Of a stretch of 64,000 nucleotides of DNA, positions 37,100 to 64,000 are shown piece by piece. Origin of the DNA: Acetobacter pasteurianus subsp. pasteurianus LMG 1262 = NBRC 106471 (GTDB taxonomy: Bacteria > Pseudomonadota > Alphaproteobacteria > Acetobacterales > Acetobacteraceae); NCBI RefSeq assembly GCF_000285275.1, contig NZ_CADO01000004.1, positions 1-64,000 on the forward strand. The letters are read 5' to 3'. Numbering within the stretch: the first letter of the stretch is position 1; each line of letters begins with the position of its first letter. Under the pieces are notes generated by a model. It saw nothing but the letters and a program-made list of their open reading frames with translations. It ran no database searches and was not told the DNA's origin. The translations under genes were made by a program, and so were the position numbers.

Positions 37100-37876
37100 T
37101 TACACAGCCTGTGTACGTGCGCTACTAACGGCCTGATACGTGGCTACGGCAAGCGTGAGGGGGTCAAACGGCTTGGTAATTACAAAACTGGGTTCCATGG
37201 TTTCCCCAGTCAGCAACCGTTCGGGGTACGCTGTTACGTAAATAACCGGCACATTGAAGGAGGAGGTAATTTCTGCCACCGCCTGTATGCCATCTCCGCC
37301 CGGCCCAAGGTTAATATCTGCCAGAATAAGCCCCGGCTTGGTTTCTCTGGCCAATTTTACTGCATCGGCCTGTGTATGGGCTATGCCTGCAACCTGATGC
37401 CCGCATTGCAGCACAAGCTGTTCGATATCCATGGCAATAATGGGTTCATCTTCAATAATCAGCACGGATGTCTGCACATTCTTGTGCAGGCGGCCCTGTG
37501 CGTCTTCCAGTTCCTGCTCTGCCTGTTTGGTGGATACGCCTGTAATGCGTGCGGCCATTTCAACCGGCACTTCCTCCAGCGTGATCAGCAGCAAAAGCTG
37601 GCGCTGTGTTACAGAAAGCCCTGCAACATCATATTCCGCAGCAAACCCTGCAACATCATATTCCGCAGCAAACCCTTTACGAGAAAATAGCCCTGAAATT
37701 GCCTCATAGAGCTGATAAAGGGGTGTAAAGCCTTCCTTCAGCCGTTGCGCAGAAAGGCCGCGCAGGCTTTCGGCCACCAGCAGATCACCTTCTGGTTGGC
37801 TGCCTGTCAGCGCCCGCGCGTAACGTCTGCCATAAGGGAGGGCCCGGATCAGGCCGTCACGCAGCGACTCTGACAT
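37100..37876 (-). CDS. phyR: PhyR general stress response regulator
   Basis: A 258-residue protein with an N-terminal sigma-like domain (about 1-135) and a C-terminal receiver domain (about 136-258). In the receiver, LIIEDEPIIAMD gives the acidic pocket and LILADINLGPGGDG the phosphoacceptor Asp near 187. Phosphorylated PhyR binds NepR through its sigma-like domain and so frees EcfG. Residues 69-77 are exactly repeated at 78-86 (FAAEYDVAG twice), between the sigma2-like and sigma4-like parts, caused by a 27-bp duplication. It is divergent from ecfG. Confidence 0.93.
   Translation of the reverse strand: MSESLRDGLIRALPYGRRYARALTGSQPEGDLLVAESLRGLSAQRLKEGFTPLYQLYEAISGLFSRKGFAAEYDVAGFAAEYDVAGLSVTQRQLLLLITLEEVPVEMAARITGVSTKQAEQELEDAQGRLHKNVQTSVLIIEDEPIIAMDIEQLVLQCGHQVAGIAHTQADAVKLARETKPGLILADINLGPGGDGIQAVAEITSSFNVPVIYVTAYPERLLTGETMEPSFVITKPFDPLTLAVATYQAVSSARTQAV
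37619..37672. repeat. 27-bp in-frame tandem duplication inside phyR
   Basis: Two identical, directly adjacent 27-bp units at 37619-37645 and 37646-37672, sharing CCCTGCAACATCATATTCCG at their starts, with three further matching bases after. They encode the repeated FAAEYDVAG in PhyR. Confidence 0.97.
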
Positions 37877-37964
37877 GGCAAGTCTCCTTCATAATGGGTC
37901 ATGACAAAAACATGCGAGAACGCGATGATGCACGCGCACCGGCTTTCCGGAAAGGGGATTTATC

Positions 37965-38510
37965 CTGACTCGCACTCCACATTCCACCCATGTTGCCACG
38001 CGGCGCACGTTTCGCACAGAACTTCTTGCAATTATCCCTGCATTACGTGGGTTTGCACGCTTTCTGGCGCGTGATTCCGCCATTGCCGATGATCTGGTGC
38101 AGGATACAATTGTGCGTGCTCTGGACAAGGCAGATGACTTTACACCCGGCACAAACCTACGGGCGTGGTGCTTTGCCATTTTGCGCAATCTTTTTTTGGA
38201 GCAGCACCGCCGCGGGCGCAGAGAGCGCATTGCGCTGGAAGATTACGGCCACCAGCCTGCCTCCACAGCCGAATCGTCTCCGCACACGCAAACCGAAATG
38301 CAGGAGCTTGAAAGCCTGTTGTGGCAGATATCTCCACTTCTGCGGGAGGCTCTGGTGCTTGTTGGCGCGCAGGAGCTGACATACGCAGAAGCCGCGGAAA
38401 TATGTGAGGTGGAAGTGGGCACCATGAAGGCCCGTGTTTCGCGCGCACGGGCCGCGCTCAAGAAAGTCATGGCCACGCAGGATAAACAAAACGGCCCGGA
38501 AGGCTCGTAA
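37965..38510 (+). CDS. ecfG: EcfG-type general stress sigma factor, CTG start
   Basis: A sigma-70 family ECF protein of about 181 residues. Region 2 reads FRTELLAIIPALRGFARFLA, then ADDLVQDTIVRALDKAD; region 4 has LREALVLVGAQELTYAEAAE and GTMKARVSRARAAL. This is the EcfG family held by NepR. There is no ATG, GTG or TTG in frame before region 2: the frame opens after a TGA at 37926 and the first usable codon is CTG at 37965, preceded by the ribosome-binding site AAAGGGGA with six-base spacing. It would give MTRTPHSTHVATRRTFR. Starting at the first standard codon (GTG 38097) would remove most of region 2. Confidence 0.83.
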   Translation: MTRTPHSTHVATRRTFRTELLAIIPALRGFARFLARDSAIADDLVQDTIVRALDKADDFTPGTNLRAWCFAILRNLFLEQHRRGRRERIALEDYGHQPASTAESSPHTQTEMQELESLLWQISPLLREALVLVGAQELTYAEAAEICEVEVGTMKARVSRARAALKKVMATQDKQNGPEGS

Positions 38511-38616: not shown

Positions 38617-39210
38617 ATGACAGCCTCTTTCCATGATCAGGTTATCGCTATCCTCCCCAAACTGCGCGTGCAGGCATTAGCGCTCACCCGCAATCGTTCT
38701 GTGGCCGAAGATCTTGTGCAGGATACTGTGTGCAATGCTCTGGCGGCGCAGGACAGTTTTGTCATGGGCACCAATTTTGCCGCATGGATGCACCGTATTC
38801 TGCGTAACCGTTTTATCTCTGACCTCCGCAAAAAGCGCGAAGTCGGGAACATTGATGATACGCCTCAATCCCTGTTGTCAGTGAGTGGACGACATGAGGA
38901 CAGGCTGGCCCTGAAAGAACTGGATGCAGCGCTTGCACGGCTGCCAGACGACCAGCGGGAAGCTCTGGTGTTGGGGGTTCTGGAGGGGATGAGCTATCAA
39001 GAGTTAGCAGACGTTGCCGGATGCGCTGTGGGTACAGCAAAAAGCCGGGTCTTTCGGGCACGCCGACAGCTGGAAGTCTGGCTGATGGGGGAAGAAGAAG
39101 GCGGTGTTTCTGGCAAAGCAGGCGCAGAAACCACCACCAGAGCTTCTTCCACTCGACGGAAAACCCGCACGGCCCGTAACACAACGCGTAACGCACAGCA
39201 GACGGCATAA
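38617..39210 (+). CDS. second ECF sigma factor
   Basis: A 197-residue ECF sigma factor. Region 2 contains LALTRNRSVAEDLVQDTVCNAL and region 4 has LPDDQREALVLGVLEGMSYQ, then AKSRVFRARRQLE. It belongs in the same broad EcfG-like group as the preceding gene. The last 50 residues are a basic, Thr/Arg-rich tail not part of the sigma fold. It lies between ecfG and nepR, so it may be another NepR client, or a paralogue with its own role. It is 106 bases downstream of ecfG. Confidence 0.9.
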   Translation: MTASFHDQVIAILPKLRVQALALTRNRSVAEDLVQDTVCNALAAQDSFVMGTNFAAWMHRILRNRFISDLRKKREVGNIDDTPQSLLSVSGRHEDRLALKELDAALARLPDDQREALVLGVLEGMSYQELADVAGCAVGTAKSRVFRARRQLEVWLMGEEEGGVSGKAGAETTTRASSTRRKTRTARNTTRNAQQTA

Positions 39211-39323
39211 ACGCAATGGCGTACGATACTGATGTTAGGGACCCAAAGCCCGCAGAGTCGTGCAAACACAGCACTCAACAGGCCATGCCCGGATGGATGG
39301 CATGGCAGAAACCGGAGTTCAGG

Positions 39324-39497
39324 ATGGGAAAAAGGAGAGACGACGCCCACTCCCGAAAGCCGAAAAAAAAGCGGGATAAAGCTTTTGACCTATGGCTGAA
39401 GCGTGGCCTGCACCAGATGTTCGATAACGTTGTGAATGAACCCGTGCCTGAAGAACTGCTTAAGCTTATTCAGGAAGATCGAGAAAAACAGGATTAA
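39324..39497 (+). CDS. nepR: NepR anti-sigma factor
   Basis: A protein of about 57 residues with the NepR core AFDLWLKRGLHQMFDNVVNE and PVPEELLKLIQ. NepR sequesters EcfG until phosphorylated PhyR displaces it. ATG 39324 has a good ribosome-binding site (GGAG, six-base spacing) and gives the usual NepR length; an in-frame ATG at 39216, five bases after the sigma-factor stop, would add a 36-residue non-conserved leader. Confidence 0.9.
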   Translation: MGKRRDDAHSRKPKKKRDKAFDLWLKRGLHQMFDNVVNEPVPEELLKLIQEDREKQD

Positions 39498-39502
39498 GCA
39501 CT

Positions 39503-41280
39503 TTGCATATTAGTGGGCGAGGGGAAGGCCCTGCAAACCGGGTAGCGGCCTCCCTTCTGTCTGGTTTGGGGCGCATTTTCAGCACGACAAGCGCACGCAT
39601 GCGGCTGCTGATCTGCCTTTCGGCTGTTCCTGTTATTGCTATTGGTGCCGTACTGGCTCTGCACAATTACCGCGAGGTTACCCTTGGCAGCGCACAGCGT
39701 GCTGGCAACGCCATTATGCGGCTGGACCTGCAATTCCGCCACGATACAGACAGATTACGGAGCGCCCTAGAAACCATAGGCCATATGGATCTGACGCCCG
39801 ATCAGATCGTGCACGCCCTCCGGCTTATGGAAACCATTAGTGGGCAGCGCTACTGCTTTCTTTCTGTGCTGGATGATGAAGGCAAACCCATACAATCCGT
39901 TTCCCCCCAAGGGCGGGGATGTGCGGAGGTAGGGGCGCTTTCTACACCAACGGATGTGCATTCCACATTACTCGAAGCTGTGCAGACCAGCGGCGGACCG
40001 GGGGAAGGTGGTGCTTTTTTGCGCATTACCGTGCCCGCAGGTTTTTTGGCTCTTCCTGAAGCACATGGCTATCTGATGGGTATTCTCCAGATATCCCGGC
40101 AAAGGGCGTACTTGGTAGCGCCTCCGGCTGGCAGGTTTTTGCAGAAGATGACAACCCCATACAGGCATGGCTGCTCATGCATAATGGACAGTTGTTGCCT
40201 GTATGTTCAGATTGCGGGTGGCAATCTCCACCACCTTCCATCGTGCATGAACTCAAGAACGCGCTGGAAAACAGCGAGCGCAGCATTATCACACTCCCCA
40301 CCGGGCTGGGGGGCTATGCTTTGGGCGCCATTGCGGGGGGAGCAGATATTCTGGTGTCCACCCAGCGCACATCCATGGAATCTGACGCCCTGCATACCAT
40401 GATCCTGCAAATTGTAGGGCTGGTGTTGCTGCTGGTTATCGGGCTGGTTGCCGTTACCTTGGCGGCCAATATTGTGTTGATAGGCCCATTACGCCGCCTC
40501 ACATACTCTGTACAGAAATGGCAAATGGAAGGGATTTTTGATGCACGCATCACCCGTTCCATGCCGCTTGAACTCCAGCGCCTTGGGCAGGCTTTTACGC
40601 GTGCAACACGCCGCCTTTCCCGCCATGAAGCGCGGCTTAAAAAAGCAATGGCACATCAGCAACTGTTGATGAAGGAAGTGCACCACCGCGTTAAGAACAA
40701 TCTCCAGATTGTAGCCTCCTTGCTCAACTTGCAGGCTAACCAGATTGAACACCCGGAGGTGCGGGCAGAATTTGCCCTCGCGCGTGATAGAATTCGCGCA
40801 CTAGCAACACTGCATCGGACACTTTACGCAGAAGATGCCCTGAACAGCCTGAACATGGCTGTCTTTCTGCAAGAGCTTTGTGAGCAAACGCTTCACATCG
40901 CCGGAGAATCTGAATTCGGGCGTATGACGTTGGATGTGGTTTCAGACAGTTTTTGGATGGACCCCGATCAGGCTGTGCCTCTCGCCCTTATTGTTACAGA
41001 AATTATCACCAACTCCATTAAATATGCTTTCCCTGATGGGCAGAAAGGCACCATTTTTGTGCGCCTGCATCGTAGCCACGGGCAGCTTACCCTTCAGGTT
41101 GGAGATAACGGGGTGGGGTGTGCGTGGGAAGATCCGCCTGTACATCAAGGCATTGGCCTTAAACTCATTCACGCATTTGCGCGCCAGCTTAAAGCAACGC
41201 TTACGTATAAAGGGGAAGGCGGCGTGCAATATACGTTGGTAATGCGCCTGCCAGAAACCCCGCCAGAACCCAGAAAATAA
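39503..41280 (+). pseudogene. HisKA_2-type sensor histidine kinase, frameshifted
   Basis: Two overlapping reading frames together encode one membrane sensor kinase of about 590 residues. The first (39503-40402) has TM1 (RLLICLSAVPVIAIGAVLAL) and an extracytoplasmic sensor; the second (open from 40060, conserved to 41280) continues the sensor, then TM2, a HAMP-like linker, the HisKA_2 dimerisation/phosphoacceptor box MKEVHHRVKNNLQIVASLLN and an HATPase domain (ITNSIKYAFPDGQ, VGDNGVG). Restoring one base in the AAAGGG run at 40101-40106 joins the frames as GILQISRQKGVLGSASGWQV. HWE/HisKA_2 kinases in this place usually control PhyR. The start TTG 39503 is uncertain; an ATG at 39599 is the alternative. 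Without a fix the kinase domain would be separated from the sensor. Confidence 0.85.
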
Positions 41281-63983: not shown

Positions 63984-64000
63984 GCCCACATAGGAAAGGA

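Follow-up and report, generated by a model that had tools for sequence, protein, structure and literature searches.

We analysed a window of 64 kb, the first part of a 110-kb contig, from an Acetobacter draft genome of 2.98 Mb in 141 contigs. The genome belongs to an Acetobacter close to A. pomorum; A. pomorum LHT 2458 is among its relatives, and the closest relative, G027, shares ~94% identity along the contig, i.e., it differs by ~6%. As at known PhyR loci, phyR is divergent from an ECF sigma factor gene and nepR lies nearby, together with a gene for a HWE/HisKA_2 sensor kinase (Table 1). A general stress response locus of the same layout is described in passages of PMC8103513. No breaks are visible in phyR, nepR and the two ECF sigma factor genes; the frame of the kinase gene is broken.

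Table 1. Features of the phyR locus, in window positions.
Feature	Coordinates	Strand	Evidence
phyR, 258 residues, PhyR-family anti-anti-sigma response regulator	37100..37876	-	NF006623; PhyR_sigma2 and Response_reg; PDB PhyR relatives
27-bp copy in phyR, first by + strand position and second as translated	37619..37645	-	Identical to next 27 bp; Tandem Repeats Finder array
Second 27-bp copy, plus four more matching bases to 37676	37646..37672	-	One copy in 29/29 aligned relatives
ecf1, ECF sigma factor divergent from phyR, probable CTG start	37965..38510	+	Sigma70_r2 and r4_2; CTG after AAGRGG-like element in 30/30 Acetobacter loci
ecf2, ECF sigma factor (EcfG-like)	38617..39210	+	Sigma70_r2 and r4_2
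nepR, anti-sigma factor	39216..39497	+	Pfam NepR 26.9 bits, cut-off 25.7
Sensor histidine kinase gene (HisKA_2/HWE), frame broken	39503..41280	+	Two frames in window, one frame in 4/4 close relatives
One-base frameshift site, near codon 204 of 592	40111..40113	+	Alignments to relatives; split matches

With the NCBIfam NepR model the nepR product scored 33 bits, under the cut-off of 100. Matches to an EcfG promoter consensus numbered 0 in the window, with 1.16 expected by chance. Ahead of the ecf1 sigma frame (window 37,950–37,970), all 30 Acetobacter loci (L001–L030) have a CTG preceded by the element AAGGGG or AAGAGG, and this CTG is the probable start codon of ecf1. An in-frame ATG, GTG or TTG upstream is missing from 18 of these loci and present in 12 (L018–L029). 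CTG near the ecf1 start also occurs in some other acetic acid bacteria, and an ATG is found nearby in many other Alphaproteobacteria. The TGA of a short upstream frame, MRERDDARAPAFRKGDLS (window 37,912–37,968), overlaps the ecf1 CTG (CTGA). The CTGA is kept in 29 of the 30 loci, L013 having CTGG instead, and the short frame is not conserved outside close relatives.

In family model, domains and predicted fold, the window PhyR is the same as alphaproteobacterial PhyR (NF006623/PRK09191; PDB 3n0r, 4g97, 5uxw, 9by5 and 9cb6). It passed the NF006623 model over residues 5–255 with 302.2–302.7 bits (cut-off 240); the one-copy protein of genome G003 scored lower, at 288.7 bits. Pfam placed PhyR_sigma2 at the N terminus and the receiver domain (Response_reg) at the C terminus, and the sigma4 half had no Pfam match at E 0.001. 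The columns of E142, D143, D187, T215 and K235 are invariant in a 48-row PhyR alignment; we take these to be the conserved receiver residues. Near-full-length PhyR was found in 45 of the 49 Acetobacter genomes searched, including that of the window, and not in G038, G039, G040 and G046. The phyR alignment comprised 30 of the 45 loci, namely the window and 29 other Acetobacter (other species); the remaining 15, with match lengths of 663–723 bp vs 774 bp for the window, lie outside it. No second phyR was found in the window's genome, where the two other matches (E near 1e-4) cover the receiver region.

Within phyR, the initial annotation had noted an exact 27-bp tandem duplication that inserts nine residues between the two sigma-like halves of the protein. 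We found the same: the copies are identical and in frame, and GFAAEYDVA occupies residues 68–76 and again 77–85. The period-27 run totals 58 bp. Tandem Repeats Finder placed an array at 37,612–37,676 (period 27, score 116), one of two in the window, the other scoring 43, and detected no array with a score of at least 50 in the 40 kb of contig beyond the window (~104 kb scanned overall). By our arithmetic, the chance expectation of an exact adjacent 27-base repeat in 64 kb is near 64,000 × 4^-27, so a chance repeat was rejected on length. The second copy occurs in none of the 29 other aligned Acetobacter, all of which carry a single unit, and an ancestral shared repeat was therefore rejected as well. 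The PhyR of G027 is 100% identical to that of the window outside the gap. In the assembly, the duplication is thus genuine, and of the genomes compared this one alone carries it. As a type of change it is ordinary: a tandem duplication, in frame, within a known protein.

The identity of the copies had been read as a sign of recent origin, an argument that carries little weight. Divergence on the window's branch is ~3% (half of the ~6% difference to G027), and a duplication as old as the split from G027 would be expected to show only ~1.6 differences between its copies, with a chance of ~0.2 of showing none (our arithmetic); identical copies therefore say little about age. Absence from relatives is a better limit on the age of the duplication than copy identity. 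The single unit of G027 and A. pomorum has CCCT (+ strand) on either side, at a distance of 27 bp, which is sufficient for slipped pairing, and we infer that a single in-frame duplication event probably took this route at the 4-bp direct repeat.

Exact repeats can contract by slippage, too, and loss of one copy in this way is plausible. Such behavior would suit a contingency (phase-variable) element, in which shifts in copy number tune PhyR. Passages of PMC4686929 relate that Azuma et al. 2009 reported hyper-mutable tandem repeats in substrains of A. pasteurianus IFO 3283, and the window's repeat resembles those in being a tandem repeat within an Acetobacter gene. Unlike them, it has two copies only, and no change of copy number between cells or strains was observed. 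All 29 aligned relatives have a single copy, so that the window's two are the only departure in copy number seen, and a gain or loss of 27 bp preserves the frame and would not switch the gene off. We regard a contingency element as very improbable.

The duplication sits in the linker joining the sigma2-like and sigma4-like halves of PhyR. We measured this linker in 90 loci, starting where the sigma2 side ends and stopping at a conserved Arg of sigma4. The loci comprised 30 from Acetobacter, the best 30 of 57 class-wide matches (289 genomes) and the best 30 of 122 family-wide matches (200 genomes), with the window's own genome and G003 each present twice. Linker length ranged from 27 to 49 residues, with widely differing sequences, in a sample that is biased because the class-wide and family-wide loci are the best-scoring ones. 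In the Acetobacter set, 29 of 30 linkers have 29 or 30 residues and that of the window has 39. All 30 class-wide loci have 40–49 residues; in the family-wide set, 15 of 30 loci have 27–35, 14 have 40–45, and the window itself has 39. No measured linker other than the window's has 36–39 residues, so its length lies between two classes, one short and one long. The window PhyR differs from known PhyR in its nine extra residues from an exact tandem duplication, and otherwise belongs to the short-linker class. In another family member (L129, genome G524), the same PhyR linker contains FNDREFNDRE, encoded by a 15-bp repeat with one mismatch, which suggests that duplication may have lengthened the linker elsewhere.

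AlphaFold2 returned a mean pLDDT of 86.4 and a pTM of 0.84 for the window PhyR (48 rows), and 87.3 and 0.85 for the one-copy PhyR of G027 (47 rows). The flanking helices are kept, spanning residues 52–65 and 89–100 in the two-copy model and 52–66 and 80–91 in the one-copy model. The extra residues form a low-confidence loop in the two-copy model, where residues 79–81 fall below 50 and the loop block 71–80 has a mean confidence of 54, vs 67 in the one-copy model. Over almost the whole chain, the window model matches six PhyR crystal structures (Z 28.3–31.8). The fold of the two-copy PhyR is thus predicted to be kept. As models of PhyR without NepR, these predictions bear on folding and not on NepR binding. 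According to passages of PMC12148442, the linker segment is a disordered loop in PhyR structures, with alpha4 as a part of it, and alpha4 takes part in NepR binding; an effect of the duplication on NepR affinity is therefore possible. The initial annotation had placed the insertion in the part of PhyR that must bind NepR and considered that it could change or abolish signaling. With a linker so variable in length and sequence and a predicted fold that is kept, the view that the insertion hits an unchangeable part is not supported, and an abolition of NepR binding finds no support in linker anatomy; a change in NepR affinity, through alpha4, may still hold.

The neighboring kinase gene is short of one base ~2.4 kb from the phyR duplication. 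By its position the kinase is PhyK-like. Like HWE/HisKA_2 kinases encoded next to ecfG-nepR, it has HisKA_2 and ATPase domains and sits after nepR; unlike those, its frame breaks before the kinase domains. These domains (HisKA_2 and HATPase) are kept in a second open frame of 406 residues, so a shortened kinase that may still act is conceivable. The HisKA_2 and HWE models each match only this kinase in the genome, other kinase families being outside the search. HisKA_2 matches were found in 46 of 49 Acetobacter genomes; for 44 of these, the open frame that holds the main match has 595–664 residues, and the exceptions are the window (406) and G022 (414). The kinase gene of G022 (L071) carries an independent frameshift, located in a run of seven G no more than a few bases from the same codon; it is either real or a sequencing error. 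At the site in the window there are nearby substitutions and no long homopolymer; with the substitutions, the shift does not look like a homopolymer miscount. Since the only HisKA_2/HWE kinase found is frameshifted, PhyR has probably lost its stress input or receives it in altered form, and the general stress response is, from the sequence, probably impaired at the kinase. The frameshift is more likely than the PhyR duplication to weaken this response. Literature matches for A. pasteurianus with PhyR, or with frameshift and histidine kinase, look unrelated.

Changes found only in the window among five genomes were counted as synonymous to other: 5 to 0 in phyR, 3 to 1 in ecf1, 7 to 2 in ecf2, 0 to 0 in nepR, and in the kinase gene 10 to 1 before the shift and 21 to 2 after it. 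The changes found only in G027 were 6 to 0 before the kinase shift site and 15 to 0 after it. Most of the window-only changes being synonymous, selection held the pathway genes until recently, or still does.

Across 110 kb, the contig differs from G027 by 30 gap openings in two long alignments. From 91 mechanically called G027 genes of at least 150 residues, 83 were compared, the other 8 having no match (outside the shared stretch), and 11 of the 83 were flagged. Seven of the 11 have an in-frame stop in the window's contig: four of these stops, at residues 4–14, are probably over-long ORF calls, and two (residues 130 and 407) fall in frames that resemble antisense ORFs. The seventh stop, at window 22,003, is a possible nonsense codon: it falls at residue 440 in a gene of 467 residues whose frame is open in G027. 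The other four flagged genes are the kinase, one of 269 residues whose N-terminal part is divergent, one of 191 residues that differs from G027 over the first 17, and one truncated by the end of the contig. The kinase is the sole clear mid-gene frameshift among the 83 genes. The reverse check, with 83 genes of the window's contig, flagged 6 in G027, which thus has flaws of its own. A genome generally rich in indels, which was not seen across these 110 kb, was rejected. Near position 80,969 of the contig (L050 near 16,969), a small minus-strand open frame shows a 36-bp length difference to G027, a multiple of three.

These counts bear on whether one or both lesions are errors of the draft assembly. 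The genome is a draft in 141 contigs, analysed here without sequencing reads, and the two-copy allele is present in only one of the 30 aligned genomes. However, 30 gap openings over 110 kb and few broken genes do not point to an error-ridden assembly, no other strong tandem array turned up in the ~104 kb scanned, and the frameshift site differs by substitutions as well, with no long homopolymer in the window. An assembly error is distinctly unlikely.

At a rough probability of 0.6, we favor a slippage duplication that lengthened a tolerated PhyR linker, in a pathway more likely limited by the broken kinase. The flexible sigma2–sigma4 linker, most likely a tolerant one, would have grown from 30 to 39 residues, and the two-copy PhyR would still fold and still bind NepR, its affinity being altered modestly if at all; the frameshifted gene of the only HisKA_2/HWE kinase found would be the likelier limit. 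The linker range of 27–49 residues, the family-model score, the kept fold, the 5 to 0 excess of synonymous changes and the L129 repeat argue for this, and the empty range of 36–39 residues, the lower loop confidence, the inclusion of alpha4 and the biased locus sample argue against it.

Alternatively, the duplication could disable or clearly weaken PhyR and, together with the kinase frameshift, mark a stress response being lost in this strain, by relaxed selection or through a benefit in culture. Two unusual lesions within 2.5 kb, in neighboring genes of one pathway, suggest a link, although two events are not proof, and the kinase stands out as the only clear mid-gene frameshift of the comparison. 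Loss does occur in the genus: near-full-length PhyR, HisKA_2 kinase, NepR and EcfG matches are all absent from G038, G039 and G046, and G040 keeps EcfG, NepR and the kinase without a near-full-length PhyR. Yet the insertion is in frame and in a linker of variable length, and the largely synonymous window-only changes in phyR and the kinase gene mean that any decay of the pathway would be recent; the kinase ratios are slightly worse than those of G027, on numbers too few to decide. We hold ongoing loss to be unlikely, while giving it serious weight. Quite improbable, in our estimate, is that the linker duplication represents a second-site adaptation to the kinase break, in which the doubled segment around alpha4 would let unphosphorylated PhyR capture NepR and the response run without its sensor.

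This genome may fail to represent strains in which the general stress response works. That several Acetobacter genomes have lost the system would matter for stress handling in these fermentation bacteria. If the second-site adaptation were true, the window would hold a natural kinase-independent PhyR. The duplication and the broken kinase together form a small natural experiment on whether PhyR needs its kinase and whether linker length sets its hold on NepR.
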